Below are positions 37,468-55,743 of a stretch of 60,146 nt of DNA, piece by piece (position 1 is the stretch's first letter; every line of letters begins with the position of its first letter). The stretch covers positions 1 through 60,146 of the forward strand of contig NZ_JAODIY010000006.1 of NCBI RefSeq assembly GCF_026586665.1. Direction: 5' to 3'. Under the pieces are notes generated by a model. That model saw only the letters and a program-made list of their open reading frames with translations, ran no database searches and was not told where the DNA came from. The translations under genes were made by a program, and so were the position numbers. This DNA comes from Halovenus rubra. GTDB taxonomy: Archaea > Halobacteriota > Halobacteria > Halobacteriales > Haloarculaceae.

Positions 37468-38147
37468 ACTTCTCTGGGTCGTTCTGGAAAAATCAATATT
37501 CTGTTTCCGGTTTGTTTTCTTATATAAAGCGATACGACAATATCACTTCACGGAACAGCGCTGGTGTAAGTCGGTAAACTAGAACGGATGCTATGACACG
37601 CTATACCCAAGAGCGGAGTGAAAAACAGAATTTTGACGAGTGTTTGGCGACCTTCTTAGAGATGGTGGAGCACCTCAAACGCCGACTGATTCTCGGCAGG
37701 GGTTGCTGAATAGAATCGCCGTGTTTTCAACTACTGTTGGGGTCTGCAGGATATGTCACTCTCTTAGATTTACTAATTTTGCAGGATGTGACCGATAAAC
37801 ACACATATAAACCTTCCGTCAATTATATATACTGTCATTCAGACTTGATAATGTGAGAGACAATACAGAGTGCCCGGCGTTGCGGATTTCTGGCCCTTGT
37901 AGCCCCAATTGCGGACTACCTAAGCCACGGCAGCTGGTTGCCGGACACTCCGACAGGTCCTCACTGGTCGTTTACCACGATTGTCCGCCCTCCGAGTCGT
38001 TCGGGGAAGTGGGGCCCGTTCACAATCTCGGTGGCCACTCGTGTCGCGGACGCGATATTGCGACGACCACGACCGCGGTTGCCGTCTTTCCCGCCGCCGG
38101 TGTCAACCGGTGGGTTGGAACCAATCGCTGGAGCTTCGAGTGAATTT
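37468..38147. other. Long leader region with a sudden base-composition change
   Basis: Up to about 37850 the DNA is AT-rich, with broken frames that may be transposase remains (GCTATGACACGC and GGGGTTGCTGAATAG are element-like). A strong TATA (ATTATATATACTG, 37823-37835) is followed from 37855 by clearly GC-rich DNA. The frame of the giant propeller gene is open from 37938, but its 70 extra residues are basic and Pro-rich. A 96-codon frame at 37853-38143 overlaps it. Neither is convincing. Confidence 0.4.
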
Positions 38148-41100
38148 ATGATAAGCGAGAATACATCAGTAGAGCATGAGGATTCGGACGCAAAAAAACA
38201 CCACGAATGGGACACGCTACGGGGGGGTATGGACCGGACTGGGTCGGCTGGCGACGCGCCCACCGAGGCCGTCCGGGCCGCCTGGACGTATGAAGGGGAC
38301 CGCGGGCTCGACTCGGCCCCCGCCGTCGACGGTACGACAGCGTACATCGGCGACAGTAGTGAGGTGGCCGCCATCGACATCGAGAGCGGCGACCGGCTCT
38401 GGAGTTTCGAAGCCGACGACACTATTGGGGGCAATCCAGTCGTTGCCGACGGTACGGTGTACGTCGGCAGCTACGACCAGCACTTCTATGCAATCGATGC
38501 TGACACCGGCATGGAAGAATGGGCCTTCGAGCCGACCGGCAGCGGTTTCAGCATCGTCGTATCGACGGCGACTGTCGTTGGTGACAAAGTGTACGTCGGC
38601 TGCAACGACGGCAATGTCTACGCTATTGACACTGAGAGCGGTGAAGAGCGGTGGTCGTTCGCCACGGATGACAAGATAACCAGCTCGCCGGCGGTCGTGG
38701 ACGGCATCGTCTACGTCGCGAGTCAGGACACGACTCTCTACGCGATCAACGCCGAGACCGGTGTCCGGGAGTGGGAATATGAGGCCGGCGGCCGTGTCTC
38801 GATCGAGTCGTCGCCCGCCGTTGCCGACGGAACTGTCTACCTTGCCGGCAGCGGCCGGCTCTATGCGGTCGACGCCGAGACTGGTCAGAAACAATGGTCA
38901 TTCGACTGTTCCTCGGGCAAGAAAACGCCGGTTGTCGGTGACAATCGAGTTTATTTGGCTGGTCAGGGCGAACTCCACGCCGTCGACACTGCCTCCGGCG
39001 AGGAGGTCTGGCAGGCCGAGTTCGAGTACGATCTGGATCTCTCCCCGGTGTATGCCGATGGGACACTCTACCAGCCACACTACGATACTCTGGTTGCGCT
39101 GGACCCTGAGAACGGCGACAAACAGTGGACATTCGAGACCGGTGACTCCATCCAAGCCGCCCCGGCAGTCACGTACGGAGCGCTGTTCCTGACGAGTCAG
39201 GACCGGAACCTGTACGCACTGACCGAGGATGGCGAGCCGGTTGACGTACCTGAAGCTGCCATCGACGACAGCGATGACGACGGTGAAATCGACGTGAGTG
39301 AGGAGCCCGGCTGGTCTACCGACCGCGGCGACCTCGCGCGGACAGGCCATAGCGAAGGTGTCGGCCCGACCGAACAAGTGGAGGCCCGCTGGAGCTACGA
39401 GCCCGAGGACACGAAACAGGGTATCGCGGCACTTGACGGGACAGTATACCTGACCGATGAGTCCGGTGTACTCGTAGCTATCGACCAGGAGACAGGGGCG
39501 CCCGAGTGGGAGTTCGAGGCCGGCCGGGGTATTCCCTGTGCACCCTCGGTCACTGACGGTACCGTCTACGTTGGAAGCCGTGACGAACACCTCTATGCGG
39601 TCGACGCTGAGTCCGGCGAGGAGCAGTGGTCGGTCGAGGCAACCGGCAGCTTCGCTACCTTCGGCTCGCCGCCGACCGTCGCCGATGGGGTCGTCTACGC
39701 CTCCTGTGAAGACGGGACGCTGTACGCGGTCGACGCCGACTCTGGATCTGTTGAATGGACCTTCGAGCGCCGGAGCGACTTTACCTGTAGCCCAGCCGTT
39801 GTCAACGGCATGGCCATCGCCGGTGCCGGAAACACTCTCTACGCCGTCGATATCGAAAGCGGCGAGATGCGCTGGCAGTTCGAATCGGGCGGCATCGGCG
39901 ACATCGATTCCTCGCCCGCGGTCGTCGGAGACACTCTCTACTTCGGCGGCACGGAGAAAGAATTCCACGCGCTCAGTGTCGAACAGGGTATGGAGCAGTG
40001 GACCGTTGAACTCGACGATTCCGTTAATAGTGCCGTGGCGGTCGTTAACGGCACCGTCTACGCCGGTGCTGACGATGCGACGCTGTACGCCTTCGACGCA
40101 GCAACCGGTGACGAGGAGTGGGCGGTTCCGGTCGACAACGCGATGCGGAGTGCGCCTGCCGTCGCCGACGGTATCGTCTACGCGACGAGCGGGTCCCAGA
40201 TTCAGGCCCACGACGCCGACAACGGCCGGGAACTGTTCTCGTTCGAGCATACCGGCGATCTCTCTCTTTCGCCAGTCGTGGCCAACGGCACGCTGTACGC
40301 CGGCGGCTACGAGTTCAACGCCTTCGGAGAGTACCGTCCGGACGCAGTACCGAGCCAGGACGCTAAAGATACTGACGAGGACGCCGAGGCAGCCGCTGAG
40401 GACGCGGACGAGGCTGACGACGCGGCCGAGGACGTGACAACTCCGGACGAAGTCGAAGGTTGGGCAACCCTTCGAGGGACCGTCGACCGGACTGGGTCGG
40501 CTGGTGACGCGCCCACCGAGGCCGTCCGGGCTGCCTGGACGTATGAAGGGGACCGCGGGCTCGACTCGGCCCCCGCCGTCGACGGTACGACGGCGTATAT
40601 CGGCGACAGTAGCGAGGTTGCCGCCGTCGACATCGAGAGCGGCGACCGTCTCTGGAGTTTCGAAGCCGACGACACCATCGGAGGCAACCCAGTCGTTGCC
40701 GACGGTACGGTGTACGCCGGCAGCTACGACCAGCACTTCTATGCAATCGACGCTGACACCGGCATGGAAGAATGGGCATTCGAGCCGACCGGCAGTGGTT
40801 TCAACTACGTCAAATCGACGGCAACTGTCGTTGGCGACAAAGTGTACGTCGGCTGCAGTGATGGCAATGTCTACGCTATTGACACCGATAGCGGCGAAGA
40901 GTGGTGGTCGTTCGCTACGGACGATAAGATAATGGGTTCGCCCGCGGTCGTGGACGGTATCGTCTACGTCGCGAGTCAGGATACGACCCTCTATGCGATC
41001 AACGCCGAGACCGGTGTCCGGGAATGGGAATATGAGACCGGCGGCCGCGTCTCGGTCGAGTCGTCGGCCACCGTTGCCGACGGGACCGTCTACCTTGCCG

Positions 41101-43292
41101 GCAGCGGCCAGCAGCTCTGTGCGGTCGACGCCGAGACCGGTCAGGAACAATGGTCATTCGACTGTTCCTCGGGAAAAAAGACACCGGTCGTCGGTGACAA
41201 TCGAGTTTATTTGGCTGGTCAAGGCGAACTCCACGCCGTTGATACTGTTTCCGGCGAGGAGGTCTGGCAGGTTGAGTTCGAGTACGATCTGGATCTCTCC
41301 CCGGTGTATGCCGATGGGACACTCTACCAGCCACACCACGACACTCTGGTTGCGCTGGACCCCGAGACCGGTGACCAGCAATGGACGTTCGAGACGGGGG
41401 ACTCCATCCAAGCCGCCCCGGCAGTCACGTACGGAGCGCTGTTCCTGACGAGTCAGGACCGGAACCTGTACGCGCTGACCGAGGATGGTGCGCCGGTCGA
41501 TGTACCTGAAGCTGCCATCGACGACAGCGATGACGACGATGCAATCGACGTGAGTGAGGAGCCCGGCTGGTCCACCGACCGGGGTACTCTCGCTCGAACC
41601 GGAGCTATTTCGGGGAGCGGTCCAACGGAGGAACCAACGTCTCGGTGGGAGTACGAAACCGACGACCGGAAGCAGGGCATCGCGGCCCTAAACGGGACGC
41701 TGTATGTGACCAGCGAAGACAGTACGCTTACCGCGCTTGAGCCTTCGACTGGCGCGGCCAAGTGGGAGTTTGAGGCCGGCCGGGGGATCCCCTGTGCACC
41801 CTCGGTCACCGACGAGACCGTCTACGTTGGAAGCCGTGACGAACACCTCTATGCGGTCGACGCCGAGTCCGGCGAGGAACAATGGTCGGTCGAGGCAACC
41901 GGCAGCTTCGCCACTTTCGGCTCGCCGCCGACTGTCGCTGACGGCGTCGTCTACGCCCCCTGTGAGGACGGGACGCTGTATGCAGTCGACACCGACTCTG
42001 GATCTATTGAATGGACCTTCGAGCGCCGGAGCGACTTTACCTGTAGCCCAGCCGTTGTCAACGGCATGGCTATCGCCGGTGCCGGTAACACTCTCTACGC
42101 CGTCGATATCGAGAGCGGCGAGATGCGCTGGCAGTTCGAATCGGGTGGTATCGGTGACATCGAGTCCTCACCGGCGGTTGTCGGAGACTCCATCTACTTT
42201 GGCGGCACGGAGAAAGAACTCCACGCGCTCAGTGTTGAACAGGGCATGGAGCAGTGGACCGTTGAACTCGACGATTCCGTCAAAGGTCCCGTAGCAGTTG
42301 TCGACGGCACCGTCTACGCCGGCACCGACGACGCAACGCTGTACGCCCTTGAGGCTGAGTCCGGCGACGAGGAGTGGGCGGTTCCAGTCGACGACGCGAT
42401 GCGGAGCGGCCCCGCCGTCTCCGACGGTATCGTCTACGCCACTGCCGGGACCCAGATACAGGCCCACGACGCCGACAACGGCCGAGAGCTGTTCTCTGTC
42501 GAGCAGTACGGCGACCTTGATCTGAGCCCCGTCGTCGCCGACGGGACGCTGTACACGGGTGGATACGGATTCAACGCTTACGGCGACCTCGACGACGCAG
42601 GAAACGAATCGGCAACTGATGAGGCCGCTACGGACGACGCAGCCGACGACACCGCGGCGACTGCTGACTCCGGAAGCGTCTCGTCCGACCACGAGCCCGA
42701 CACCAACTTCGCCGCCAGCGCGGCCGACGACACCGAGGACCCGAACGACGACCAACTCAAAGAGGCCATCCTCGGCGTGCTCTGTGACGAATGGCAGCGG
42801 TTCAACCGCGACGTGCGGCTGGGCTTTGACCAGATCACGGACAGGGTCAGCGAGGTCCTCCCCGGCGGGACCGAGGGCCTGGTCAAGCACAACGTCCAGC
42901 GGCTGGCCGAAGATGGCTACGTGGAACTCGGCCCGACCGGTGAGACGGTGTTCCTCCGGGCCCGCGGCGTGGGCAAGTACCAGAATCTCAGCGACGAGCG
43001 TGTCGTGCCCGACGCTGACATCATCGAGGTACTGGACCCCCTCTACGAGCAGGCTCGCCACCATCCGGACCATCCGGGTATGGGTCGCGAGGAGCTCCTC
43101 GAAGAGGTGTATCTCGATGAGGATAAGCTTGACCGGACCATCTGGTTCCTACAGGACGTGGGGATGGACCTCGGCGGTATCATTCTCAACGGCGCCGGCT
43201 ACATCGATGTCGTCGCCCAGGGCAGTTCGCCGTGGTGGATCAGCGTGAACATCAACAAGTTCGGCAAGGACCTTTACGAAGAGCTCTCGTGA
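38148..43292 (+). CDS. Giant PQQ-type beta-propeller protein (about 32 blades) with C-terminal winged-helix domain
   Basis: From the ATG at 38148 (MISENTSVEHEDSDAKKHHE) the protein has 1,714 residues, no signal peptide and no membrane segment, so it should be cytoplasmic. Four modules each start with a GW(S/A)T(D/L)RG...RTG-type phrase (about residues 17, 387, 770 and 1139), and I count eight blades in each, ending W-x-F/Y with AVDAESGEE-like turns. Modules 3-4 are a near copy of 1-2. An acidic linker (about 1480-1535) leads to a C-terminal domain (LKEAILGVLCDEWQRFNRDV to KDLYEELS) related to the end of the pseudokinase at 44108. Such propellers bind proteins, or PQQ in dehydrogenases; no catalytic residues are seen. 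A scaffold or sensor is likely. Confidence 0.85.
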   Translation: MISENTSVEHEDSDAKKHHEWDTLRGGMDRTGSAGDAPTEAVRAAWTYEGDRGLDSAPAVDGTTAYIGDSSEVAAIDIESGDRLWSFEADDTIGGNPVVADGTVYVGSYDQHFYAIDADTGMEEWAFEPTGSGFSIVVSTATVVGDKVYVGCNDGNVYAIDTESGEERWSFATDDKITSSPAVVDGIVYVASQDTTLYAINAETGVREWEYEAGGRVSIESSPAVADGTVYLAGSGRLYAVDAETGQKQWSFDCSSGKKTPVVGDNRVYLAGQGELHAVDTASGEEVWQAEFEYDLDLSPVYADGTLYQPHYDTLVALDPENGDKQWTFETGDSIQAAPAVTYGALFLTSQDRNLYALTEDGEPVDVPEAAIDDSDDDGEIDVSEEPGWSTDRGDLARTGHSEGVGPTEQVEARWSYEPEDTKQGIAALDGTVYLTDESGVLVAIDQETGAPEWEFEAGRGIPCAPSVTDGTVYVGSRDEHLYAVDAESGEEQWSVEATGSFATFGSPPTVADGVVYASCEDGTLYAVDADSGSVEWTFERRSDFTCSPAVVNGMAIAGAGNTLYAVDIESGEMRWQFESGGIGDIDSSPAVVGDTLYFGGTEKEFHALSVEQGMEQWTVELDDSVNSAVAVVNGTVYAGADDATLYAFDAATGDEEWAVPVDNAMRSAPAVADGIVYATSGSQIQAHDADNGRELFSFEHTGDLSLSPVVANGTLYAGGYEFNAFGEYRPDAVPSQDAKDTDEDAEAAAEDADEADDAAEDVTTPDEVEGWATLRGTVDRTGSAGDAPTEAVRAAWTYEGDRGLDSAPAVDGTTAYIGDSSEVAAVDIESGDRLWSFEADDTIGGNPVVADGTVYAGSYDQHFYAIDADTGMEEWAFEPTGSGFNYVKSTATVVGDKVYVGCSDGNVYAIDTDSGEEWWSFATDDKIMGSPAVVDGIVYVASQDTTLYAINAETGVREWEYETGGRVSVESSATVADGTVYLAGSGQQLCAVDAETGQEQWSFDCSSGKKTPVVGDNRVYLAGQGELHAVDTVSGEEVWQVEFEYDLDLSPVYADGTLYQPHHDTLVALDPETGDQQWTFETGDSIQAAPAVTYGALFLTSQDRNLYALTEDGAPVDVPEAAIDDSDDDDAIDVSEEPGWSTDRGTLARTGAISGSGPTEEPTSRWEYETDDRKQGIAALNGTLYVTSEDSTLTALEPSTGAAKWEFEAGRGIPCAPSVTDETVYVGSRDEHLYAVDAESGEEQWSVEATGSFATFGSPPTVADGVVYAPCEDGTLYAVDTDSGSIEWTFERRSDFTCSPAVVNGMAIAGAGNTLYAVDIESGEMRWQFESGGIGDIESSPAVVGDSIYFGGTEKELHALSVEQGMEQWTVELDDSVKGPVAVVDGTVYAGTDDATLYALEAESGDEEWAVPVDDAMRSGPAVSDGIVYATAGTQIQAHDADNGRELFSVEQYGDLDLSPVVADGTLYTGGYGFNAYGDLDDAGNESATDEAATDDAADDTAATADSGSVSSDHEPDTNFAASAADDTEDPNDDQLKEAILGVLCDEWQRFNRDVRLGFDQITDRVSEVLPGGTEGLVKHNVQRLAEDGYVELGPTGETVFLRARGVGKYQNLSDERVVPDADIIEVLDPLYEQARHHPDHPGMGREELLEEVYLDEDKLDRTIWFLQDVGMDLGGIILNGAGYIDVVAQGSSPWWISVNINKFGKDLYEELS
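38200..40335 (+). repeat. Tandem duplication within the giant propeller gene, copy 1
   Basis: The stretch encoding modules 1 and 2. The sequence GACTGGGTCGGCTGG starts at 38237 here and at 40490 in copy 2, so the repeat unit is 2,253 bases (751 codons). Confidence 0.85.
40453..42588 (+). repeat. Tandem duplication within the giant propeller gene, copy 2
   Basis: The stretch encoding modules 3 and 4. Long runs are identical to copy 1 even at third codon positions. The beginning of module 4 (near 41595-41740) is clearly more diverged than the rest. Confidence 0.85.
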
Positions 43293-43447
43293 TTGAGAGC
43301 TTATAGGACCGTCCCGGCCCTGTCCCGATTTTGATATCGGTACGGCGTCAGACCGTCATCCGCACGTGGGCATGTTCTCCATGCCCTGTCCCTGACGGCT
43401 ATTTCGATTCAAACGACAACTACGGCAGAAAGACGCTATCGGATGCG

Positions 43448-43642
43448 TTACCGCGGACCTGGTGTTTGTGGCTCGTCTTCGACGTAGACGACCCGCTCTC
43501 TGGGTATCTTTCGTTCGACTTGCTTTCCGTCCACCTCGAGGATGAGCGAATACATGCCTGATTCGATGTCATATCGGTACCGCGCCGGCTCATAACTCTT
43601 CGTTCCGTCGGACTGTCTCGGGTCTTCGACGATAATTTCCAT
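43448..43642 (-). CDS. Small soluble protein, 64 residues
   Basis: MEIIVEDPRQSDGTKSYEPA begins a 64-residue protein of mainly beta character (RYRYDIESGMYSLILEVDGK), ending EDEPQTPGPR. TTTTATTATAG about 22-30 bases upstream (43664-43674) gives a TATA box for a leaderless mRNA and decides the start at 43642 over the frame opening at 43714. No family was recognised. It lies between the giant propeller gene and pseudokinase 1, convergent with the first. Confidence 0.6.
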   Translation of the reverse strand: MEIIVEDPRQSDGTKSYEPARYRYDIESGMYSLILEVDGKQVERKIPRERVVYVEDEPQTPGPR

Positions 43643-44107
43643 ATTTACTGTAGATAATACTATAATAAAATGGTTGTCATCCAAACTGCACCCAGACCAG
43701 CGGCTGCTTTGCACTCAGAAAACGGAGACAGCTACCCGAGGGATCCATCTGGCTAACAGATATTGTCGCGATCAATTGAGCAGGAGTGGACAACCAGCCA
43801 CGTTTCTGAGTTCAAACCTGGGTATCACGCCCCTCCAGCCAGAGAAAGCAGCCTGTCCTACGGCAATTGGTCGCTTGCCCGCTACCGGGATATCGCGGTT
43901 GCGCTCTGACTGGATGTGTTCACGTGATCGATTGCCAGCCAAAAGCGGTCTACGCGATTCTCGCCCGCCGTGAACGGCGGCACTCCCTCGCTGTATGTGG
44001 TGGCTTCAAGAAGCACCAGAACGCGCCCTCGGAAGTCTGGCCGCTGTTGAGGGACCATCACCTCACGTATGCAGGCCCGACGGGTTCGACTACCTCTGGA
44101 ACGCCCT
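43643..44107. other. Intergenic region, no convincing gene
   Basis: The 465 bases hold the TATA region of the 64-residue gene and then GC-rich DNA up to the stop of pseudokinase 1. Open frames (43867-44148 on plus, 93 codons) are basic and overlap the kinase end. They may be degraded coding DNA, but nothing is recognisable. Confidence 0.4.
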
Positions 44108-47100
44108 CTAGACGATGTCCTCGTAGAGGTCCTTGCCGGCGCCGTTGAGCTTCGCAGTCGCCCAAGGAGTCTGTCCCGTGCTATGGATGTCGAGGTAGCC
44201 GACTGATCCCTTGATGAACAGTAAGTCCTCGACCCACTTGCCGGCGTTCGCGAGATACCAGACGATACGGTCGAGTTCGTCGTCCTCAAGGTAGGTTTGC
44301 TCCTGCAGGTCCGCACGCGAGAACCGTGGGTCCCGTGACTCACGTGTCTGTTCATAGAGGGGCTCGAGAACCTCCAGCAGGTCGACATCGTCGATGACCA
44401 CTTCGCCGGTCACCTCCTCGAAAAACTGGACGCCGGAGGGTCGGCTTGTCACCAGCTGGTAGTCGTTCATGTTGTCCCAGCCGACGTAACCCTTCTCGGC
44501 GAGCCGTTCGACATTGTGCCGGAACAGTTGCGCCGTCGCGCCCGATATCTGGTCAATCGCTTCCGGAACGATGCTGTCGGTCCGGACGGTCACCTGCTGG
44601 TGAGTGGTCTGCCAGGCGTCGATGACGCCGCCGAGAATCACAGCCCGGAGCTCCTCGTCGGTCGGTTCTTCGGGGTCGTCGATGTTCTCGATGGCGAGCG
44701 AGAGGTACTCGTCGCCGCGTTCGACGCCCTCGTCCTCACGGCCGAGATCAGACTCGATGGTCTCCGGTTCGCCCGCCGAACGGCCCTGCGACTTGGGAAT
44801 CATCGTTCGCAACCGACGGTCCCCGTCGACGAACGCCACGCGGTTGTTGCCGACGGTGGGACCAGTCGGGGAGGCGCGGCTCGCGGTGTTGCGCTGCCAG
44901 CAGACCTCGCCGTTGGCCCCATCCAGTGCGAGTATCGCGTCGTGGGCAGCGACGTAGACGGCGTCAGCGACCGCGAGCGGACTTCGAACGGCGCTGCCGG
45001 CGTCATGCACCCAGCGACGGTCGCCACTCTCGGCGTCGAGCGCCGCCACCGTGCCGTCGTTGCCGGCGCAGTAGACTGTCTCACCCTCGACGGCTACCCC
45101 AGTTCGGAACTCGTTGGCGACGGTGACAGACCACTGCTGGGCCCCGGTCTCGGCGTCGACTGCGAGGACGGAACCCTCTGCCGTGGCGAAGTAGAGCTGT
45201 TCGTGTGCGAGCGCGGGGACACCGGCCGTTCCTCGTGGGATGTCGGTCGTCCACTGCTCAATACCGAGACCGGCGTCGAGCGCGGTCAGCGTGCTGCCGG
45301 CCGCAAGATACACCATGCCGTGACCGACGACAGGGGTGTGACTGGCGTCGATCTCCTGACGCCACAGATGCTCCCCGTCCGCGGTCGATAGGGCGTGGAC
45401 TTCCCGATTGTCGAGCGCGTACAGCACGTCGCCGGTGACCGCCGGCGTCTGAAACTCGCCGGTCCCTCTGACCGACCAGACGGGCTCACCGGTGTCGGCC
45501 GAAACCGCCGAGAGCTGGTCGCCGTCAACCCGCGAGTCCGCGTCACCGGCCATGGGTCGACAGACTGTATACACCTGATTGCCGTCGGTCACGGCCTCGT
45601 GGTCGTCGTCAGCGACCCCGTCGGTGGTCCACAGCACGTCGCCCTCGTCGCTGTCGACGGCGTGGAGGGTTGCGCGGTCGTCGCCGACGTAGACGACCCC
45701 GCTGTTGTCCATCGATGGGGGGGAGAGCGCCGCGTTTGGGTCGAACGACCATCTGGCCACGGCGTCCTCGTTCGGCCCGCCGCCACCCGCGTGCCGGCTC
45801 CGTCGTGGCGTCGCGCTCGTGACCCCCCAGCTACCGGGAGGTGACTGCAAGCGCTCCATCGATGGCATCGTCACGTCGCCGCTACAGGTCCCGAACTCAG
45901 GGGTTGGCGTGTCGTTGTCGGCACCCCGAACGGACAAGACGGAACCGTCCGCACCGCCGACAAAGAGGTCTGTCTTGCCGAGTCCGGGCGTCGTTGTGAC
46001 CGCCTCACCGAGGTCGAGCGACCAGGTTTCGGTCCCGGTGTGGGCGTCGACGCCGTACAGCCCAGAATCGGTGCCAAGGAAGACCACACCGTCTGAGACG
46101 ACCGGGCTTGTTGCCGTCGCCCGCTCCTCGAACGTCCACACTTCGTCACCGGTGTCCGCGTCAAGCGCGGTGAGCCCAACCAAGTCGCCGCCGACGAACA
46201 CCGTCCCGCCGTCGACTGCGGGCGTCGCTATGTTCCGAGAGTCGGTGTCGGTCTGCCAGATGCGTGTCCCGTCGGTTGCGTCGAGCGCGTGGACGGTCCC
46301 GCCACGCGCGGCGACGTAGACCCGGCCGTACCGCACGACTGGCGCGTTTTTGACCGACGAAACGTCGTCGAAGGTCCAGACTTCGTCGCCGGTCTCAGCG
46401 TCCAGCGCGTAGACCGTCTCGTCGGTGCCGCCGACGTAGACGGTGCCATCTGCCACCGCTGGCGTCGCGGCCAGCGAACTGCCTGTTTCGAAGCGCCACT
46501 GTTGGTCACCTGTCTCGGCGTCCAGTCCGTAGACGAAGGCGTCGTTACTGGCGACGTAGACTGTGCCATCGTCGACAACGGGCGAGGTCCGGAACCGGCC
46601 TGCCGAGAACGTCCATAGCTCATCACCCGTCTCAGCGTCCAGCGCGTACACCATCTCGCCGCTGGTGACAAAGACTGTGTCGTTGACTACCGCTGGCGTC
46701 GTGAAGATGGTCCCCGGCAACTCGACCGACCACTCGTAGGTGCTGGTTTCGACATCGATGGCGTGGATGGCCTCGTCGTTCCCGCCGACGTAGACCGTCC
46801 CGTCGGCCACGACGGGGGTAGACTGGACCTCGTGATAGCCGGTGTTAACCGACCAGAACTGCTCGACCGGCGCTGTCGGGCCCAGTGCTGGTTCGTGGTT
46901 GGAGTGGGCTGGCCCGCCGCCGAACTGCCGCCACGCGGCGTCGGCCGACGACCCGGTGCGTTCCTGCAGCGCGACCCGGAACGCCTCGACGGTGCGGTAG
47001 CGCTCGGCCGGGTCGGTCGCCAGTGCCGTGGTCACGACCTTGTCGACGCCCGTTGGGAGGTCGGCGTGTTCGCTCGGTGTCGCCGCCGGATCGGTAACGC

Positions 47101-47797
47101 TGTCGAGGACAGCGCCGGTGGCACCCTCGTACGGGCGACTGCCGGTCAAGAGCTCGTAACAGATGACACCCAGCCGGTAGACGTCAGCACGCTGGTCCGG
47201 CTCGCCGAACCGCGCCGGGTCGAACTGCTCCGGGGCGGCATAGGCCGTCGTGAGCGCATCTATACCTCCCACGTGCTCGTCCAGCGCCACACCAGTACCC
47301 GTGTCGAGCAGGACCGGTTCGCCGTCAACGACGAGAATCCGTTCTGGCGTCAACGCGTGATGGTTGACCCGACGGCTGTGGAGGTGTTCGAGTGCCTCAG
47401 CACACTGGCTCGCGAACGCTACCGCCTCGTCGGTATCAAATTGTTCCTCATCGAGCCGGTCCCGCAGCGTCTCTCTACCGGCGCGCTCGGTCGCAACCCA
47501 TGGGCCGTCCTCAGTCACACCCCAGTCGAGTACGGAGCAGACGCCCTCATGATCGTCGACGGCAGCCCACGTCTCCGCGCCGTCGATGTACGCCGACGCC
47601 TCACTTGCAATCGAACCCTGTATCCGCGGGCGGACGAGCGACACCGAACGAGCCTCCCCGTCGACTGTCGCAGTCACCTCGTAGATGTCCGACCCCACCC
47701 TGTGACGCTCCGGCACACCGACATCGAGAGACTTGTACTCAATATCGCCACGCGAGTCCACGTACCAATCGACGCGTTCGCTGTCAGCAACGGTCAT
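44108..47797 (-). CDS. Pseudokinase 1: kinase-like domain, two 8-bladed propellers, C-terminal winged-helix domain
   Basis: A 1,229-residue cytoplasmic protein without signal or membrane segments. Residues about 35-285 follow a Hanks-type Ser/Thr kinase, but the catalytic loop reads HHALTPER (146-153) where HRDLKPEN is expected, and the Lys strand reads SVSLVRPRI without the Lys. DTG (165-167) may stand for DFG; AYAAPEQFDPARFG and DVYRLGVICYELLTG (C-lobe) are well kept. Sixteen propeller blades follow, eight at about 300-640 and eight at about 680-1010. The last 185 residues resemble the end of the giant propeller protein. It is divergent from pseudokinase 2, with a 124-base shared promoter region. 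Confidence 0.85.
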   Translation of the reverse strand: MTVADSERVDWYVDSRGDIEYKSLDVGVPERHRVGSDIYEVTATVDGEARSVSLVRPRIQGSIASEASAYIDGAETWAAVDDHEGVCSVLDWGVTEDGPWVATERAGRETLRDRLDEEQFDTDEAVAFASQCAEALEHLHSRRVNHHALTPERILVVDGEPVLLDTGTGVALDEHVGGIDALTTAYAAPEQFDPARFGEPDQRADVYRLGVICYELLTGSRPYEGATGAVLDSVTDPAATPSEHADLPTGVDKVVTTALATDPAERYRTVEAFRVALQERTGSSADAAWRQFGGGPAHSNHEPALGPTAPVEQFWSVNTGYHEVQSTPVVADGTVYVGGNDEAIHAIDVETSTYEWSVELPGTIFTTPAVVNDTVFVTSGEMVYALDAETGDELWTFSAGRFRTSPVVDDGTVYVASNDAFVYGLDAETGDQQWRFETGSSLAATPAVADGTVYVGGTDETVYALDAETGDEVWTFDDVSSVKNAPVVRYGRVYVAARGGTVHALDATDGTRIWQTDTDSRNIATPAVDGGTVFVGGDLVGLTALDADTGDEVWTFEERATATSPVVSDGVVFLGTDSGLYGVDAHTGTETWSLDLGEAVTTTPGLGKTDLFVGGADGSVLSVRGADNDTPTPEFGTCSGDVTMPSMERLQSPPGSWGVTSATPRRSRHAGGGGPNEDAVARWSFDPNAALSPPSMDNSGVVYVGDDRATLHAVDSDEGDVLWTTDGVADDDHEAVTDGNQVYTVCRPMAGDADSRVDGDQLSAVSADTGEPVWSVRGTGEFQTPAVTGDVLYALDNREVHALSTADGEHLWRQEIDASHTPVVGHGMVYLAAGSTLTALDAGLGIEQWTTDIPRGTAGVPALAHEQLYFATAEGSVLAVDAETGAQQWSVTVANEFRTGVAVEGETVYCAGNDGTVAALDAESGDRRWVHDAGSAVRSPLAVADAVYVAAHDAILALDGANGEVCWQRNTASRASPTGPTVGNNRVAFVDGDRRLRTMIPKSQGRSAGEPETIESDLGREDEGVERGDEYLSLAIENIDDPEEPTDEELRAVILGGVIDAWQTTHQQVTVRTDSIVPEAIDQISGATAQLFRHNVERLAEKGYVGWDNMNDYQLVTSRPSGVQFFEEVTGEVVIDDVDLLEVLEPLYEQTRESRDPRFSRADLQEQTYLEDDELDRIVWYLANAGKWVEDLLFIKGSVGYLDIHSTGQTPWATAKLNGAGKDLYEDIV

Positions 47798-47921
47798 ACC
47801 TTATCTTCAGATGTCACATCAATATTCTTTCGGATGCCTGTGTGACACACCAGCTTCCAGATTCGTTGTCACAGTGCCGACATGAGAACAATTATTACTC
47901 TATTGTCTGTAGGCACCGGGC
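47798..47921. promoter_or_regulatory. Shared promoter region of the two divergent pseudokinases
   Basis: The 124 bases are AT-rich in a GC-rich setting. CAATTATTACTC (47889-47900) is about 25-30 bases before the plus-strand ATG. For the minus gene, ATATTGATGTG and the AAGGT just before the ATG are possible promoter and ribosome-binding bases. Confidence 0.5.
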
Positions 47922-50900
47922 ATGACAGCCAGCGATGAGGGTGGGAGTGCGCACGTACCTGCGAGCGACGACGCACAGAGCCCGGCAGTCGGCGCAGTCG
48001 AACATGGGACAGTCGACGTAGACGGTATCGTTAGCAACGTCGGAAGCAAGACCGTCAAGCGCGTCACATCGCCAGATGACGGGGTAGCGGTTACGAAGCT
48101 CCACTTTGTTAACGCCACCAACAGCGACCTCTCGGGCGCGGTCGAGACCTGGAAGTCGCTGTCTGCACACAGACACGTCGTCGGCCTCGTCGACTGGGAT
48201 GGCGCGGACCGACTAGTGACCGAGCGCATGGACGGGGGGAGTCTTGCCGACCGGCTGGCGGACGACGACGATGGCATCTGGCCAGACGAGGCCGTCTGGA
48301 TTACCGAACGCCTCTGTGAGGCCGTCGAACACGCTCACGACGAGGGAGCCCTCCACACAAGTATCGGCCCGGAGACCGTCCAGTTTCGGGCGGCGACCGA
48401 TGGCTGCTGGGACCTGCCGAAGCTCGGCGGCTGGGGAGTTACACGCAAGGTCCGCGCGGACCCGGACGCGGTAGCCGACTTGGACGGATGCTACGCCCCA
48501 CCGGAGCAGCTCGCGTCGGATCGCTTTGGCGAACCGGACGAACGGACGGAGGTCTACCGGCTCGGGGCCGTCTGCTACGCGCTGTTGGCTGGCCGCGCGC
48601 CAGTGACCGGCACCGGCTACGAGGTCCTGCAGGCGAAACTTTCCGGGGCCGAGCTGGCACCGGTCAGCGAGGAGACGGCCATCGTTCCGGCGGAACTCGA
48701 CGAGGTGGTCCTGAAAGCACTTGAATCCGACCCGGCTGACCGGTACGACAGTGTCGTCGACTTCCGCGCGGCGCTTGAGGCGGTCACGCTCCCCGCTGGT
48801 GCGACGACCGCCGCCATGACCGGGGAGTACCGTCAGTATGCGGGCGGCCCGGCCAACCGAAGTCTCGCCGGCAGCCCTCTGAACGGTGACGACGCCGTCG
48901 CGGAGGCGTGGACTGCACGCAGCGGTGAGTCAATCGACAGCGCTCCAGCCGTCGCGTATGGGACCGTCTATGTCGGCGGCGAGAGCGGTACCCTGTGGGC
49001 GCTCCACGCCGACACCGGAGAGGAGCGATGGGCCGTCTCGCTGGAGGACTGTGCTGACGACCCCGCCGACTCCTACGGGGACCCCTACGCCGTCGAAGCG
49101 CCACCAGCGGTCGGAGACACCACAGTGTGTGTCGGCACTGGTAGCGGCCTGTTCGCGTTCGACGCTGTCGACGGCGAGAAACAATGGGAGCGAGCGTTCG
49201 ACGTCACCGGAGCGGTGACTGTCGACGACGGCCTCGCCTACGTCGCGACTCGGGACGAGACCCTCTGCGCGCTGGACATCGAGTCCGGGGCAACGGAGTG
49301 GGAAACCGAACTCGACGGGGGGGTCAGCTCCAGCGAGGCAACTGCGCCGGCGGTCGCCGACGGGACGGTCACGCTCAACACCGGCGACGGCGTCGCCACG
49401 TTCGAGGCGGCGACCGGCGAGCACCGCTGGACGTTCCCGATTTCGTTCGCTCGACCTCCGTCCATTGCCGGAGGACAAGTGTACGCTGGCGACGAGGACA
49501 CCATCTACGCGGTCGATCTGGCGTCGGGCGACAGCGCGTGGCGAGCCGACATCGAGTACGAAATAGCCGGCCCGCCCGCAGTCGACGACGCAGCGGTGTA
49601 TGTCACGGTTCAAGACGATTGGGGCGGCGTTGAGGCGTTCGACCCCGAGTCAGGGGCTCGACAGTGGACCTACAGCCTCGAAGAGAGAGAGCAGACGCGA
49701 CTGCCGCGGGCGAACGCGGTTGTCGCCGACGACGCTGTGGTGCTCGTACTCGAATCCATTCTATCGAGCGATGACCAGACAGAGGAGGTGGTCGTGCTCG
49801 GTGCCGCCGACGGCCACGAGCGACTCAGCTACGGAATTGACCAGCGCGAACACACGGCACCGGCTGTCGCTGACGACCGACTGATCTGTGCCAACACGGA
49901 GTTCGACGTTATCGCGCTTTCGCTGCCGGCGGACCCAGAAGACCAGACGGCCGACGGCAACCGGAAAGCGGCCGACGGAACCGAATCGGCTGACACTGTT
50001 GACTCGCCAGCGTTCAACTGGAACGACGCGAAGCAGGTATGTGACGTACTCAGAGCACAGACGATGGACGAAATCGAGGAAGACCGGTTGCCAGACAAAC
50101 TCGGTTGGAACGAAGCCCGGACCACGGCAGTCGTCGACGGCATGCAATCACGCGGTATCGTCGAGGTCGACAGCTGGGACGACGTTGGTCTCCTTGAGGA
50201 GCCCGACTGGAGTCAGAGGCTCAGTGACGACGACCTCCCGAAAATCGACTGGAACGACGCGAAGCAGGTGTGTGATGTGCTGAAAAACGAGGTGAACAAT
50301 GAGCTGGACAAAGACTGGCTTCCCGATGAACTCGGCTGGACCGAGGAGCGTACCCGATCGGTTGTCGACGACTTACTAGCCCACGACTACGTCGAAATAA
50401 ACGACTGGGATGAGGTCGTCCTTCTTAGAGAGCCGTCTCGCGACAGCGGGAACAAGACGGACCCGGACGGAAGCGATTCCGGAACGCAGTCTGATGATGG
50501 CCGGGCCGACACGACGGATACCGAGGTGACGAGCGACGATGCCCAAACGCTGCTCGATCTCATCGAGGATCAAGAGGACAGCCGTCTGGTCCAGGATATA
50601 GTCAAGTTCGAGACCGGCTGGTCGGCGGCGAAAGTCGACGCCGTCATCGATGAACTGACCGCAGCTGGGCAGGTCGCAACCAACCAGATCGGCGGTTCAA
50701 CGTTCCTCACGATCGATAAGACAGGCGTCGTCGGCGGTATCGACACCGCGGCCGGACAGGCCCGTCCGGACGCGGACGCCCTCGCCGAGAAGATGGCCGA
50801 CCCTGAGCTCGCAGGGGCGCTCGCAGCGGCCGTCGAAAACGCAAACCCCGACGGGACTGTTGAGCTACTGGACGCGATGGACGACCTCCCGGATAACGAG

Positions 50901-50999
50901 CAGTGGGGGCTACTCGTCGCCAACGGCTATCTCGTCCAGTCCGGCGACGCGTTTAGAATATCACTGCCCGATGGCGTCGAGTTCGAGTTCGCCGGCTGA
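47922..50999 (+). CDS. Pseudokinase 2: kinase-like domain, one 8-bladed propeller, three C-terminal helix-turn-helix-like repeats
   Basis: A 1,025-residue cytoplasmic protein. The kinase-like domain (about 40-285) keeps VAVTKL (55-60) near the Lys strand and the C-lobe (CYAPPEQLASDRFGEPDERT and VYRLGAVCYALLAG). The catalytic loop reads HTSIGPET (145-152) without the Asp, and the DFG site reads LGGWG (168-172), so it cannot be a normal kinase. Eight propeller blades fill about 300-670. Then come two copies of a WNDAKQVCDVL...LGW repeat (from about 699 and 773) and a third diverged one (TSDDAQTLLDLIEDQEDSRL, about 870), each like a small winged helix. The C-terminus (about 925-1025) is acidic. 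It is divergent from pseudokinase 1. Confidence 0.85.
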   Translation: MTASDEGGSAHVPASDDAQSPAVGAVEHGTVDVDGIVSNVGSKTVKRVTSPDDGVAVTKLHFVNATNSDLSGAVETWKSLSAHRHVVGLVDWDGADRLVTERMDGGSLADRLADDDDGIWPDEAVWITERLCEAVEHAHDEGALHTSIGPETVQFRAATDGCWDLPKLGGWGVTRKVRADPDAVADLDGCYAPPEQLASDRFGEPDERTEVYRLGAVCYALLAGRAPVTGTGYEVLQAKLSGAELAPVSEETAIVPAELDEVVLKALESDPADRYDSVVDFRAALEAVTLPAGATTAAMTGEYRQYAGGPANRSLAGSPLNGDDAVAEAWTARSGESIDSAPAVAYGTVYVGGESGTLWALHADTGEERWAVSLEDCADDPADSYGDPYAVEAPPAVGDTTVCVGTGSGLFAFDAVDGEKQWERAFDVTGAVTVDDGLAYVATRDETLCALDIESGATEWETELDGGVSSSEATAPAVADGTVTLNTGDGVATFEAATGEHRWTFPISFARPPSIAGGQVYAGDEDTIYAVDLASGDSAWRADIEYEIAGPPAVDDAAVYVTVQDDWGGVEAFDPESGARQWTYSLEEREQTRLPRANAVVADDAVVLVLESILSSDDQTEEVVVLGAADGHERLSYGIDQREHTAPAVADDRLICANTEFDVIALSLPADPEDQTADGNRKAADGTESADTVDSPAFNWNDAKQVCDVLRAQTMDEIEEDRLPDKLGWNEARTTAVVDGMQSRGIVEVDSWDDVGLLEEPDWSQRLSDDDLPKIDWNDAKQVCDVLKNEVNNELDKDWLPDELGWTEERTRSVVDDLLAHDYVEINDWDEVVLLREPSRDSGNKTDPDGSDSGTQSDDGRADTTDTEVTSDDAQTLLDLIEDQEDSRLVQDIVKFETGWSAAKVDAVIDELTAAGQVATNQIGGSTFLTIDKTGVVGGIDTAAGQARPDADALAEKMADPELAGALAAAVENANPDGTVELLDAMDDLPDNEQWGLLVANGYLVQSGDAFRISLPDGVEFEFAG

Positions 51000-51060
51000 C
51001 CTGAGTAAAACACCTGCTGCTTGAGCAAAAGGTGGTTAATCAGATTGCTGCAAAAGAGCA

Positions 51061-51375
51061 TCAATGATTAGTGTCGGTGGGGCTCCCGAGCTCATCCCTG
51101 ATTCGCGTGACGTGGTCCACGAAGGCGAGAAACAGCGCGCGAGGGACCAGGTCGAATCGTTCGATGTACCCGTCTCTGCGGACTCAGACGGGAACATGGT
51201 CGAGTTGGAACTGAACAACCCAGAGACCGACTGCACAGTCGGACGGCTCGAGACGACGGTCGGTCGGGTCCCAGAAGGGTTGTCGGCCCCAGGCGACGTG
51301 GGACACCTGTCGGTCTTCGCGAATCTCCGATAGCAGTCGATCTATCTCCGCCTCAGCGACGGTCCGGTCCAGCAT
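51061..51375 (-). pseudogene. Small gene interrupted by an in-frame TGA
   Basis: The frame starts at the ATG at 51373-51375, overlapping the end of the 51353-52270 gene by 23 bases. It encodes MLDRTVAEAEIDRLLSEIRE and on to VVQFQLDHVPV. A TGA at 51184-51186 stops it, but the frame continues VRRDGYIERFDLVPRALFLA, FVDHVTRIRDELGSPTDTNH to a second TGA at 51061-51063. Both parts look like one protein of about 104 residues. TGA could come from CGA (Arg) by one transition. The family is unknown. It may be a recent nonsense mutation or a sequencing error. Confidence 0.5.
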
Positions 51376-52270
51376 CGTCGGTGTGACTGGCGAACTCCTC
51401 GACAGTTTCCCGAAGCGAATCGGCTTCATCTGGGTCTGAATCTGCGAGAAACTGCCTGGCGTCGCGGACCCACGCCTGCACGAACCCGTCACAGTCGAAT
51501 CGGAAGCCGTCAGCTGGATACACACCCAGCGGCGTCGCCGAGACTCTCGGTCGAATCCGCAGAACATCGCCTTCGACGCCGTACTCGAAGTCAAGCTTTT
51601 TCGACGTAGGTGCGTCCCCGCAGTCCCACGGCGATGGCTCACTATCGATTGCTGCCTTTGCCCACTTGCCGGCACAGTTGAAGAAGCGACCGGGTCGACA
51701 CGTGAGCCACCCGTGGTTCGCCCACAGAGGAACTCCCGGAACGACGATTCTCACGCGGTCTCGGGTCGGATCGTACTCGAATTGCACTGTGTCGATTGGC
51801 TCTTCACCGAATGGGTCCGGAGATGAGAGAAGTTGTCGAGCCTCGAGCGCGCTGGCTTCTATCTTGACTTTGTTCTCGTGGCCGTTACGGCGGCAGGGCA
51901 GTGCCGACGGCGAGTTCGTCGTACTTACTGTGGCGTTTTCGGGGGCGACGGGCCAGCACCCGCTATCGAAGGTCAGGTCTACGACACGCGAGCCAGAGCG
52001 CTCGATAAGTGTATCCAGCCCTCGAACGTCTCCGACGAGAACGATCTGCTCACCGTTGAGTCGAACGCCTGTTGATCCGTACTCGACGCCAGTGAATGTC
52101 GGGTCGACGACATCGACACCGACCGTACACTCTTGCTCGGTTTGCCCATCGAGAACTCCATCTGGGTCCGCAAGCGGGATTGTCGGTCCGTCCTGGTCGT
52201 ACTCGAGAACCCAGCCTGAGTAGACAGGTCGAACGGTCCCGTGGAGGAAACAGTCTGCATCGATATCCAC
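51353..52270 (-). CDS. Unrecognised soluble protein, 305 residues
   Basis: MDIDADCFLHGTVRPVYSGW starts an acidic protein with many beta strands (VRLNGEQIVLVGDVRGLDTL, LDFEYGVEGDVLRIRPRVSA) and two Cys-containing stretches (CRPGRFFNCAGKWAKAAID and WDCGD). No known domain was identified, and there is no signal or membrane segment. It overlaps the broken small gene downstream by 23 bases, so the two are translationally coupled. It stands in the propeller cluster and is likely part of the same accessory set. Confidence 0.65.
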   Translation of the reverse strand: MDIDADCFLHGTVRPVYSGWVLEYDQDGPTIPLADPDGVLDGQTEQECTVGVDVVDPTFTGVEYGSTGVRLNGEQIVLVGDVRGLDTLIERSGSRVVDLTFDSGCWPVAPENATVSTTNSPSALPCRRNGHENKVKIEASALEARQLLSSPDPFGEEPIDTVQFEYDPTRDRVRIVVPGVPLWANHGWLTCRPGRFFNCAGKWAKAAIDSEPSPWDCGDAPTSKKLDFEYGVEGDVLRIRPRVSATPLGVYPADGFRFDCDGFVQAWVRDARQFLADSDPDEADSLRETVEEFASHTDDAGPDRR

Positions 52271-52484
52271 TGGTCAGTCACCTCCACAGTCTCGTGGTCG
52301 CACTGTTTCTGGCCCCGGTGTCCGGGCCATGGTGTTGTGCCAAGCCGGCCCTGCTCGAAACGAAGCAACCTCGGCGCGTCATGGGTTGTGCGAGATGATA
52401 CTGAAAAATAAAGACTGCGCTCTGCGTTGCCCGCCCGACACAACCGAAGAGCGTGGACTCTATTTATCCAACCACGGCGTCGAT

Positions 52485-53984
52485 CTACGCGCTCCCAACC
52501 TCGTCGAGGGCGTACAGAGTGGTAGTCTCGTCGTTGTTTCTCCCGACGGCATAAATACCGTCCTCGGTGGCGGTGAGGTGGCCGACACCAGTGGGGTAGC
52601 GCCACAGCACCTCGCCGGTCTCGACGTCGATCGCCGTCGCGGCGTCGCCAGCAGTCGTGTAGACGGTGTCGACGACGACGCTCAATTCGGAGGCGTAGCT
52701 CCCGGACTCCCAGCGAATTTCTCCGGTTTCGCGATCGAGCGCGTAGACGGGCGCACTCGGCCCACTGGCAAGGACGGTGTCGTCGGTGACGACCGGTGCG
52801 TACACGAGGTCGTGTCTGATCCGGGCACTATCGTCCCATTGTTGTTCGCCAGTTGCAGGATCGTAGGCGGTGGGTCCCATGCGAGTGTTGTAGTAGACGG
52901 TGCCGTCCGCAACGGTGGGAGTGGCGTGGTATCCCCAGTCGAACATCTCGGGGGTGTGGAGGCGGCGTCGGAGTTCTCCAGTCGTAGCGTCCAGCACAGT
53001 CAGACTACCATCGTTCGCGCTGACGTACACTCGCTCACCGTCGGTCGCCACGGGGAACAGAACGCTATTGCCGGTGGCCAGATCGTAAGAAGTGGGCTCG
53101 ATGGTCGTTTGCCACCGTGGCGTCCCGTCTTTGGCGGCAAGGGCATGGACGGTTCCGGCCTGGGTGCCGACGAACACTCGCAGTTCCCGACCGTCGTTGG
53201 TATCGACTGAGGAAACGGTGGGCTGACCGAAAGTTCTTGCTCGAACATCGCGTTGCCAGTCGATAGCGCCCGAAGTAGCCTCGAGACCGACGATAGTACC
53301 GGTTGCAGTCCCACTGACGATCGTCCCGGTTTCGGGAACCACTCGCGGCTGTAGCGGTTCTTTGTAGGTTGGATCGGTGACGAGAGAGGTACGCCAGTTA
53401 CGCTTCCCACTCTCGCTGTCGACCGCCTCTACTGCCGTCGTCGTTCCGAGGTAAACAGTATTTTCTTCAACGACTGGGCGGCCGATACTAGAATCTCTGC
53501 CGACCGTCCACGATCGACTGACGTCACCTACGTCGTTCCGGGAGGTCTGGCTGTCGGCCGAAATGTCGTGTGCCCGGTCGTACTCGACACTGACAGTTAC
53601 GTACGGCGCCTCGGCATCTCCTGAAAAAGTCTCCGCTGATCTATCGAACAACGTATGACCGAGTGGTATTCCATCGCGTTCCAGGTCACATTCGGGGAAC
53701 ACGAATTCCGAGGAGAACTGACCGAGAGTCGGCGAAACTGCTGGGGTAAGGTCCGGATCGGTGTCTGAAAACCTGAAACTAACGATCAGGGTACCGTACT
53801 TGTCACGTCCGAGTGACGGGAGGATCTCCTTTCGTACTGAGATTGTTCCGGGTGGATATTCCGGCGACGAATCTATCGCCTGTAGACGCAGTATCGCGTA
53901 AACACCGTCATTCCGAGGCGAGTACTCGTCGTGCGAGGCCAGATAGCTGACAGTTGATGAGTCGGTGCGTTCGCTCACAGTCAC
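52485..53984 (-). CDS. Single-propeller protein with an N-terminal beta domain
   Basis: The 499-residue protein starts MTVSERTDSSTVSYLASHDE and has an N-terminal domain of about 150 residues (FRFSDTDPDLTPAVSPTLGQ, beta-rich, unknown). The rest is a PQQ-type propeller of about seven to eight blades: VSRSWTVGRDSSIGRPVVEE, AVDSESGKRNWRTSL, then on to LWRYPTGVGHLTATEDGIYA. The C-terminal 85 residues are closely related to the remnant at 55389-55743. There is no signal peptide, so it is cytoplasmic. The 214-base spacer to the next gene downstream holds nothing recognisable. Confidence 0.75.
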   Translation of the reverse strand: MTVSERTDSSTVSYLASHDEYSPRNDGVYAILRLQAIDSSPEYPPGTISVRKEILPSLGRDKYGTLIVSFRFSDTDPDLTPAVSPTLGQFSSEFVFPECDLERDGIPLGHTLFDRSAETFSGDAEAPYVTVSVEYDRAHDISADSQTSRNDVGDVSRSWTVGRDSSIGRPVVEENTVYLGTTTAVEAVDSESGKRNWRTSLVTDPTYKEPLQPRVVPETGTIVSGTATGTIVGLEATSGAIDWQRDVRARTFGQPTVSSVDTNDGRELRVFVGTQAGTVHALAAKDGTPRWQTTIEPTSYDLATGNSVLFPVATDGERVYVSANDGSLTVLDATTGELRRRLHTPEMFDWGYHATPTVADGTVYYNTRMGPTAYDPATGEQQWDDSARIRHDLVYAPVVTDDTVLASGPSAPVYALDRETGEIRWESGSYASELSVVVDTVYTTAGDAATAIDVETGEVLWRYPTGVGHLTATEDGIYAVGRNNDETTTLYALDEVGSA

Positions 53985-54100: not shown

Positions 54101-55329
54101 TCAGAGAGTTGCCGACACCCTGGGCGCTCCGGCGTTCGGTGGGAACGATGGCCCGAGACCTTCGCTGACAGTGACGAGAGAACTTGTAACCTCGTCACCT
54201 GTCGTTGGGTCGTCGGACTCATCGGTCTCGTCGTCTACGACGTAGCGAATGTAGCTATCTTCGGCCGTCCAGTAGTAGGGCACGTCGTGGTCGCCCCCAG
54301 TGAGGATATCCATCGCGTTTTCGCCGGGTGGATCGCTACTGTCCGGTCCTGCGTTTGAGATCACGACACTGTCGACCGTTCCATCGATATCGAGGTACCA
54401 GGGTCAACCTCGGTTTGACGATGACACACTTCGTCGCTCGTATCTCGCCCGACCAGTTTGCACAGTACCATCGTATTGACCGCACTGTCGACCCCGTGGT
54501 GGGGCAAGAGGTACACGTCGGCGTTCTGGTAGGGGCTGTTACTGCCAGAAGCGATGTCACCAACCAGACCATACCTGATGTCAGACGGGATGAGGAAGGT
54601 ATGGGTCTCTGACGAGCTGTCGGGTTGGTAGGAGATGGTCAAACCGATCGAATTGCAGTCTTTGTGTCTCCCACAAGTACGCTCATCGGATGGCGGATTG
54701 AATACGTCGACATCAACGTCACCTAGAGTCCCTTCTAGCGCGCCATTGTCGGCGGTAACCGCCTGCCACTCGTTCGCTACCAATCCGTCGTCTATGTACT
54801 CATCCTTTTCTTCGCGCGGATCTGTGCCGGCTTCTGATCCACCGTGTTCCGAGTAGTAGCCGTTCTTTACGTCGAAGTTGTTCACTATGTCTGGAATATA
54901 CTTCTCGTGGTCCCTGTCACCATGTGTGACGACGAGATGGTCGATCTCATTGATTCCTTGGTCATCAACCGCTTCGACCATCTCTGTCCTGTATGGGGTG
55001 TTTGTCCACTCTTCTGGTGAATCGTCCGTACCAGCATCGATCAACATGTTCTCGCCGTTCGGAGCCTCGACGAGGATCGAGGTCCCCTTCCCGACGTTGA
55101 GGAAGGTAACCTCCATCCCGTCGCTGTCACAGTCGCCGGATCCGTCCGTCTCGACGGTTTCGGTGAGTGACACCGAGCCCTGGCCGGCGTGGACGCGATC
55201 ACTGCTGCCGGCACCGACGCCGGGCACCATGATGGAGTCCGCTTCCTCGTCGTCTACGGTCGCCTCCGCGAGACAGTCGTAGTCCGCCCACGGGACGCCA
55301 CTGTCGCTCTCTGCCGCCTCGTCGGTCAT
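54101..55329 (-). pseudogene. ComEC-like metallo-beta-lactamase gene with a frameshift
   Basis: From the ATG at 55329 (MTDEAAESDSGVPWADYDCL) the protein reaches the MBL fold with EVTFLNVGKGTSILVEAPNG, MLIDAGTDDS, the metal site VVTHGDRDHEKYIPDIV, HTFLIPSDIRYGLVGD and VYLLPHHGVDSAVN, all as in the C-terminal domain of ComEC/Rec2. The expected next strand (VVISNAG) is in another frame: SVVISNAGPDSSDPPGENAM runs on from about 54370 to the stop at 54101. Between 54370 and 54490 the reading frame is lost, with about 20 codons more than relatives need. So the gene is probably inactive, or makes a protein without its last strand. No membrane segment is present. Confidence 0.65.
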
Positions 55330-55388: not shown

Positions 55389-55743
55389 CTACGTCTTGCC
55401 ACCCTCGTCGAGAGCGTACAGCGTGCTGGTGCCGTCGTTGTTTCTCCCGACGGCGTAGATCCCGCCCTCGGTAGCGGTGAGGTGGCCGACACCGGTCGGG
55501 TAGCGCCACAGCACATCGCCCGTCTCGGGATCGAATGCGGTCGCAGCGTCGCCAGCGGTCGTGTAGACGGTCTCGTTGGCGACACTCAACTCTGAGGGAT
55601 AGGTCCGTCGCTCCCATTCGATCTCTCCGGTCTCAGCGCCGATCCCGTAGAGCCGTCGTCTGGTCCCTGCCAGTTCGGTTTGACAGTCAGCAGCGACGAC
55701 GGTCTCACCGACCCGGACTGGCGGACACAAAGTTGGCCTTCTG
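55389..55743 (-). pseudogene. C-terminal remnant of a propeller gene cut by the insertion element
   Basis: The frame reads RRPTLCPPVRVGETVVAADC from the element edge and continues AETGEIEWERRTYPSELSVA, VLWRYPTGVGHLTATEGGIY to LYALDEGGKT and a stop. The last 80 residues are nearly the same as the C-terminus of the 499-residue propeller protein (52485-53984). The N-terminal three quarters are missing: the frame is ended by the tnpB-type element at about 55743, and no matching piece is found beyond the element. So insertion was followed by deletion. Confidence 0.75.

Follow-up and report, generated by a model that had tools for sequence, protein, structure and literature searches.

Degenerate kinase heads, PQQ-type propellers and predicted winged-helix tails in a strain-specific gene cluster of Halovenus rubra

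The Streptomyces Ser/Thr kinase AfsK, in which a kinase domain is joined to C-terminal PQQ repeats, has long been known, and its target AfsR is a regulator of helix-turn-helix (HTH)-NB-ARC-TPR layout (PMC1262709). Published haloarchaeal loci of the endosomal sorting complex required for transport (ESCRT) include a kinase and a phosphatase, and one type includes propeller proteins (PMC11188069). Protein kinases have received little study in archaea, and pseudokinases there almost none: our literature searches found no paper uniting beta-propeller, protein kinase, haloarchaea and PQQ, and one paper uniting pseudokinase, archaea and haloarchaea, which deals with the unrelated ParB-CTPase fold. 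Here we analyse a 60,146-nucleotide stretch (contig NZ_JAODIY010000006.1, our C45; hereafter the window) of the 3.57-Mb draft genome of the haloarchaeon Halovenus rubra (the host), in which a gene cluster encodes four propeller proteins, termed the giant, P2, P3 and P4. P2 and P3 begin with kinase-like heads that have lost catalytic residues. The main features are as follows.

38148-43292, forward strand: the giant, a 1714-residue propeller protein with four PQQ propellers and a predicted tandem winged-helix tail (Pfam, codon-based gene call)
38208-42600 (right end approximate), forward strand: tandem duplication of a two-propeller module inside the giant (DNA self-comparison)
42702-43289, forward strand: the giant's tail, two predicted winged helices (tail comparison, AlphaFold2 model)
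44108-47797, reverse strand: pseudokinase P2, 1229 residues, with kinase-like head, two propellers and predicted winged-helix tail (Pfam, kinase alignment)
44111-44704, reverse strand: P2 tail, homologous to the giant's tail (37%; sequence comparison)
46928-47797, reverse strand: P2 kinase-like head (kinase alignment)
47798-47921, no strand: intergenic region between the divergent P2 and P3 genes, with three TGTSACA heptamers (motif search)
47922-50999, forward strand: pseudokinase P3, 1025 residues, with kinase-like head, one propeller and four predicted winged-helix-like units (Pfam, kinase alignment, model)
49923-50996, forward strand: P3 C-terminal array, comprising two WNDAKQVCDVL-type repeats, DUF7343 and a membrane-protein-like unit (Pfam, comparison, model)
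52485-53984, reverse strand: P4, 499 residues, with an N-terminal part of about 150 residues from an unassigned family and one propeller (Pfam)

All four proteins match Pfam PQQ_2 (E values of 5e-191, 2e-96, 2e-36 and 2e-35), and their genes form long, intact reading frames with a strong coding signal in the codon-based gene call. Hydropathy and sequence inspection detected no signal peptide, lipobox or membrane helix in any of them, which supports a cytoplasmic location. The score against the PQQ-dependent dehydrogenase model TIGR03075 peaks at 346.7 bits, in the repeat-rich giant, below the cut-off of 480 bits. Profile searches located kinase domains in P2 and P3 and DUF7343 in P3. A first-pass annotation, made by a model from the letters of the window, had described the shared propellers, the lack of export signals and anchors, two kinase-like proteins without catalytic residues, their divergent genes 124 bases apart and a winged-helix-like C-terminal domain common to two of the proteins, all of which we could reproduce. 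Its four large genes are three, P4 being the smaller one, and its start for the giant, TTG 37938, moves to ATG 38148, as the earlier start would add 70 residues without coding character.

P2 and P3 both exceed the cut-off of 31.7 bits for Pfam Pkinase (PF00069), with 62.8 bits (E 4e-17) and 41.9 bits (E 1e-10), respectively, and the nearest relatives of P2 with solved structures are StkP/PknB. Among 70 kinase domains taken from haloarchaeal neighbourhoods and aligned, 53 keep all four key residues (ATP-binding Lys, catalytic Asp, Asn and DFG Asp), mostly with HLD in place of HRD and DWG in place of DFG. At the Lys, HRD, Asn and DFG positions P2 instead has V, HHA, R and DTG, retaining only the DFG Asp, and P3 has T, HTS, T and GWG. 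Judged by sequence, the two proteins belong to the eukaryotic-like protein kinase fold family but lack its set of catalytic residues. In a tree of the domains both group with intact members, though support is low and the branches are long. The alignment holds further dead lineages of HGAL and related types.

P2 and P3 are colinear through both kinase and propeller with a soluble Halomicrobium protein, L066_10383 (33% over 646 residues and 30% over 725 residues), and both parts also match WP_229126546, a protein from a Halapricum plasmid. These two relatives keep an HLDLKP or HLDIKP motif and the DFG-type Asp. The host's own kinase family consists of P2, P3 and two proteins on contig C1 that are degenerate by inspection; no further protein in the genome exceeds the Pkinase cut-off, no intact kinase of the P2/P3 type was detected there, and PP2C_2 has no match. 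One host protein, adjoining IleS (L012, 5261-7345, contig C1), and one from another genome of the same genus (L103, 8605-10647) each carry a pseudokinase head, a twin-Arg-like membrane segment and a propeller; since the membrane segment separates head and propeller, the propeller is probably outside.

The C-terminal domain shared by the giant and P2 (37% identity over 198 residues) was predicted by AlphaFold2, run on a 12-row tail alignment, to form two winged helices, with a predicted local distance difference test (pLDDT) score of 87. The giant carries this tail and has no kinase head. A third copy closes a 1382-residue, three-propeller protein on host contig C48, and a fourth closes a propeller protein of about 2050 residues (open frame 2082) in genome G269; the four copies are 37-69% identical to the first and share 40 invariant columns. 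P3 also ends in winged-helix-like domains, which the first-pass annotation had not listed. Its tail is unlike that of the giant and P2: a lower-confidence model (pLDDT 71) has four winged-helix-like units, one of them DUF7343, and the last unit has 36-41% identity with the N-terminal region of haloarchaeal membrane proteins of about 300 residues. On these models the giant, P2 and P3 would all end in winged-helix arrays, of two, two and probably four units; P4 has no such tail. Weaker tail relatives are haloarchaeal proteins of 170-340 residues with tandem winged helices and membrane-anchored winged-helix proteins. Among the distant kin are tandem winged-helix proteins of about 330-340 residues whose C-terminal part appears PLD-like by eye (L018, L019, L020, L024, L026 and L028).

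The set is rare. Full-length tails occur in two of 392 haloarchaeal genomes of the order, the host and G269, each the only positive in its own family (146 and 125 genomes, respectively). A profile search of genome contigs with the tail alignment returned no relative, and none was found in the scanned viral contigs, plasmid records or phage records. The G269 giant sits between genes for a NUDIX protein and a pyridine-nucleotide disulphide oxidoreductase, close to E1 and E2 (pyruvate dehydrogenase) genes, and no kinase genes lie near it. The C48 paralogue is likewise not beside pseudokinases; its gene (L010, 7737-15903; G000:C48, about 297736-305902) is the divergent neighbour of one for a 1267-residue HVO_A0261_N-FilR1-nSTAND5-TPR protein with an AfsR-like layout.

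Kinase heads are far more widespread, with relatives in 140 of the 392 genomes. Two to seven genes of the family stand in a row, often divergently, in G254, G059, G060, G062, G120 and G079, and annotated clusters on Halomicrobium pHmuk01 and Halarchaeum pCBA1220-02 combine them with PP2C, cpn60-like, restriction-endonuclease, AAA and HEAT-type (PDS5) genes. The PP2C, AAA and HEAT genes of these clusters were not found in the window. Some kinase loci hold PP2C and an AAA ATPase whose N-terminus is MIT-like, together with a Cas2-like, a coiled-coil and a winged-helix protein. The haloarchaeal kinase family outlined by the survey is large. Its members often have HxD/DWG motifs and carry fused propellers, HEAT, Hsp70, STAND-TPR or membrane domains, and several of its lineages are dead; the present locus couples dead heads to predicted winged-helix tails. 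Individual loci add to this range. Hsp70 (DnaK) is fused to a kinase of the P2/P3 family in L069 (14010-17138, tested with Pfam) and, by resemblance, in L077 (6904-10251). Elsewhere a protein kinase is joined to an nSTAND5 NTPase and TPR repeats (L089, 6479-10711; L093, 7127-11008). Four successive kinase genes alternate in orientation at L064 (7302-19327, G254:C6), where two near-identical copies carry many membrane helices ahead of the kinase. A kinase-propeller gene that is uninterrupted in G060 falls into two frames in G059 (L100, 4372-6849, versus L099, 11729-14227), by a frameshift or an assembly error. A profile search of genome contigs with the kinase heads gave one distant Aminicenantes match, which was not used.

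The gene cluster has a GC content of 62.4%, about 10 points above its flanks (52.4% and 52.5%). Inside the giant a two-propeller module, A-B, is duplicated in tandem: three 300-nucleotide segments recur at a distance of 2253-2256 nucleotides with a DNA identity of 91-92%, and the duplication is recent. Two further features complete the cluster.

51353-52270, reverse strand: a 305-residue orphan reading frame (ORFan), without relatives across 243 haloarchaeal genomes
55389-55730, reverse strand: a propeller remnant that duplicates part of P4's C-terminal end (sequence comparison)

The remnant, a fifth propeller piece, is 79% identical to the end of P4. Near it lies a gene for an MBL-fold protein (54361-55329) with a ComEC-like HGDRDH motif; it weakly resembles several MBL proteins associated with defence. 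A C-terminal TnpB fragment with a Cas12f1-like TNB domain (55758-56324) lies at the edge of the island, where GC returns to 52%, and further on is a PD-(D/E)XK family protein (PDDEXK_4; 58035-59081) with weak similarity to PADLOC PDC-S26.

We favour, at roughly even chances, the explanation that the cluster is a strain-specific island of cytoplasmic propeller and winged-helix proteins that derive from haloarchaeal soluble kinase-propeller signalling proteins and act as phosphorylation-free sensor-scaffold regulators. The ancestor would have been an imported or expanded kinase-propeller gene of AfsK-like layout, kinase N-terminal and propeller C-terminal; catalysis would then have been lost in the kinase heads and winged-helix arrays gained at the C-termini. 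The propellers may be platforms that bind proteins or ligands, the dead heads may provide docking or conformational modules that work without catalysis, and the arrays may bind DNA or partner proteins, so that the set would work as sensor-scaffold regulators that possibly regulate each other. A bolder version is a phosphorylation-independent archaeal module: dead heads, together with multi-propeller platforms, would drive the winged-helix arrays on DNA. It would amount to an AfsK-type relay that has lost its chemistry and whose sensor, scaffold and DNA-binding output are united in single giant proteins; we put it forward tentatively and consider it unlikely. Should the proteins prove to bind DNA, this would make them giant regulators retaining the kinase fold without its chemistry, a prediction testable in culturable haloarchaea.

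Several observations weigh against this regulatory interpretation. A PDB fold search with the tail matched single winged-helix domains, with no full-length match and nothing at E below 0.001. The tails have an isoelectric point of 4.2-4.3 and their winged helices net charges of -8 and -14, the second being strongly acidic, so by its charge the tail sequence does not support the predicted DNA binding; the window proteins are as acidic overall as their tails, and acidity is a general trait of haloarchaeal proteins. Of the 13 TGTSACA copies in the 60 kb, three lie in the P2/P3 intergenic region, a weak signal that 1.1% of shuffles equal, as do 4% of tiles across the window; the sequences upstream of the C48 and G269 giants lack the motif. 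Autoregulation through a common TGTSACA operator was rejected on both counts. The case for co-operation of the genes comes down to proximity and the common tail.

The first-pass annotation had proposed an undescribed conserved system, an idea that it tied to homologues sharing neighbours and to non-export. A single machine made of the giant, the two pseudokinases and P4 would account for the adjacent genes, the common tail and the divergent P2/P3 promoter region, and the neighbourhood survey does find family kinase genes clustered in other haloarchaea, often with divergent neighbours; hydropathy gives no sign of export. The giant, however, does not co-occur with pseudokinases elsewhere: its only ortholog, that of G269, is solitary and the sole positive in its family, the C48 copy has different neighbours, and gene 51353 is an ORFan. 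The survey mostly refutes the idea, which is the least probable of those considered. A conflict or defence module, with the propellers as sensing platform and effectors encoded elsewhere, would suit a strain-specific, GC-distinct cluster flanked by a TnpB remnant and by PD-(D/E)XK and MBL proteins, the latter two weakly matching PADLOC or NCBIfam defence models; the C48 paralogue moreover adjoins an HTH-nSTAND5-TPR gene, and nSTAND5-TPR is fused to P2/P3-family kinases elsewhere. We nevertheless judge it unlikely, as none of the four proteins has an effector domain, matches to the PD-T4-6, MADS6 and PglW models cover only the generic kinase domain, NCBIfam cut-offs are missed by a wide margin, and the tail has no relative in the scanned viral, phage or plasmid sequences. 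No complete anti-phage defence gene set was found, the matches being to a generic kinase domain and, in part, to MBL and nuclease components.

Quite unlikely is a protein-sorting or coat-like scaffold akin to the haloarchaeal ESCRT loci, whose winged helices would be protein adaptors, as in ESCRT-II, rather than DNA binders. The kinase loci with AAA, coiled-coil, Cas2-like and winged-helix genes, as identified from gene content, match the description of haloarchaeal ESCRT loci, of which one type has propeller proteins (PMC11188069), and P3 has a weak EAP30/Vps36 score (E 0.009). A search with the L070 counterparts found no matching gene in the window, whether AAA (Vps4), ESCRT-III-like or PP2C; the genome lacks a PP2C_2 match, and no fold match to ESCRT-II was significant. 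Equally improbable, if not slightly more so, is that imported genes are expanding and decaying without constraint, their duplicating propellers and dead kinases having no present function. The recent duplication in the giant, the truncated P4 copy, the lost catalysis and the single-strain distribution fit such decay; the four long, intact frames with strong coding signal do not, nor does the tail, which is probably under selection because it has been kept in four diverged proteins.

How the favoured island of kinase-propeller derivatives relates to described systems is clearest for the soluble proteins of Halomicrobium (L066_10383; Hmc. mukohataei counterpart WP_012807464) and Halapricum (WP_229126546), in which, as in P2 and P3, a kinase is followed by a propeller. 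These are plasmid-borne, and the Halomicrobium ones, again like P2 and P3, have no detected signal or membrane segment; unlike P2 and P3, they have intact catalytic residues and no winged-helix tail. The Halomicrobium genes lie in a multi-kinase and PP2C cluster and L066_10383 has HEAT repeats in front, in both of which the window differs. The membrane-anchored pseudokinase-propellers of the host and its congener share the degenerate head and the propeller but have the intervening membrane segment and form a separate tree branch. The haloarchaeal ESCRT loci (PMC11188069) draw on the same kinase family and use propellers and winged-helix domains as building blocks, whereas no ESCRT core gene was found near the window genes. 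BamB and the PLuB PQQ-repeat protein have the propeller repeat of the window proteins, BamB being an exported scaffold; scores against the PLuB PQQ-repeat model were 67.0, 53.1 and 17.4 bits (cut-off 250) and 25.2 against its AAA model (cut-off 999), and no paper that we found names the PLuB system. Known archaeal PQQ propellers had been described in the first-pass annotation as mostly exported, a statement that overlooks the soluble plasmid-borne kinase-propellers and AfsK. With AfsK, P2 and P3 share the order of kinase head and PQQ-type propeller, and the AfsR layout is comparable to that of the HTH-nSTAND-TPR neighbour of the C48 paralogue. AfsK is an active kinase associated with the membrane, whereas P2 and P3 are predicted from their residues to be inactive and carry predicted winged-helix tails, and their scores of 208.6 and 84.4 bits against NCBIfam NF053615 (AfsK) lie far below its cut-off of 1300 bits. 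A conserved new system is not supported by these comparisons; the locus encodes a genuine and unusual protein set, a variant on the known kinase-propeller architecture.

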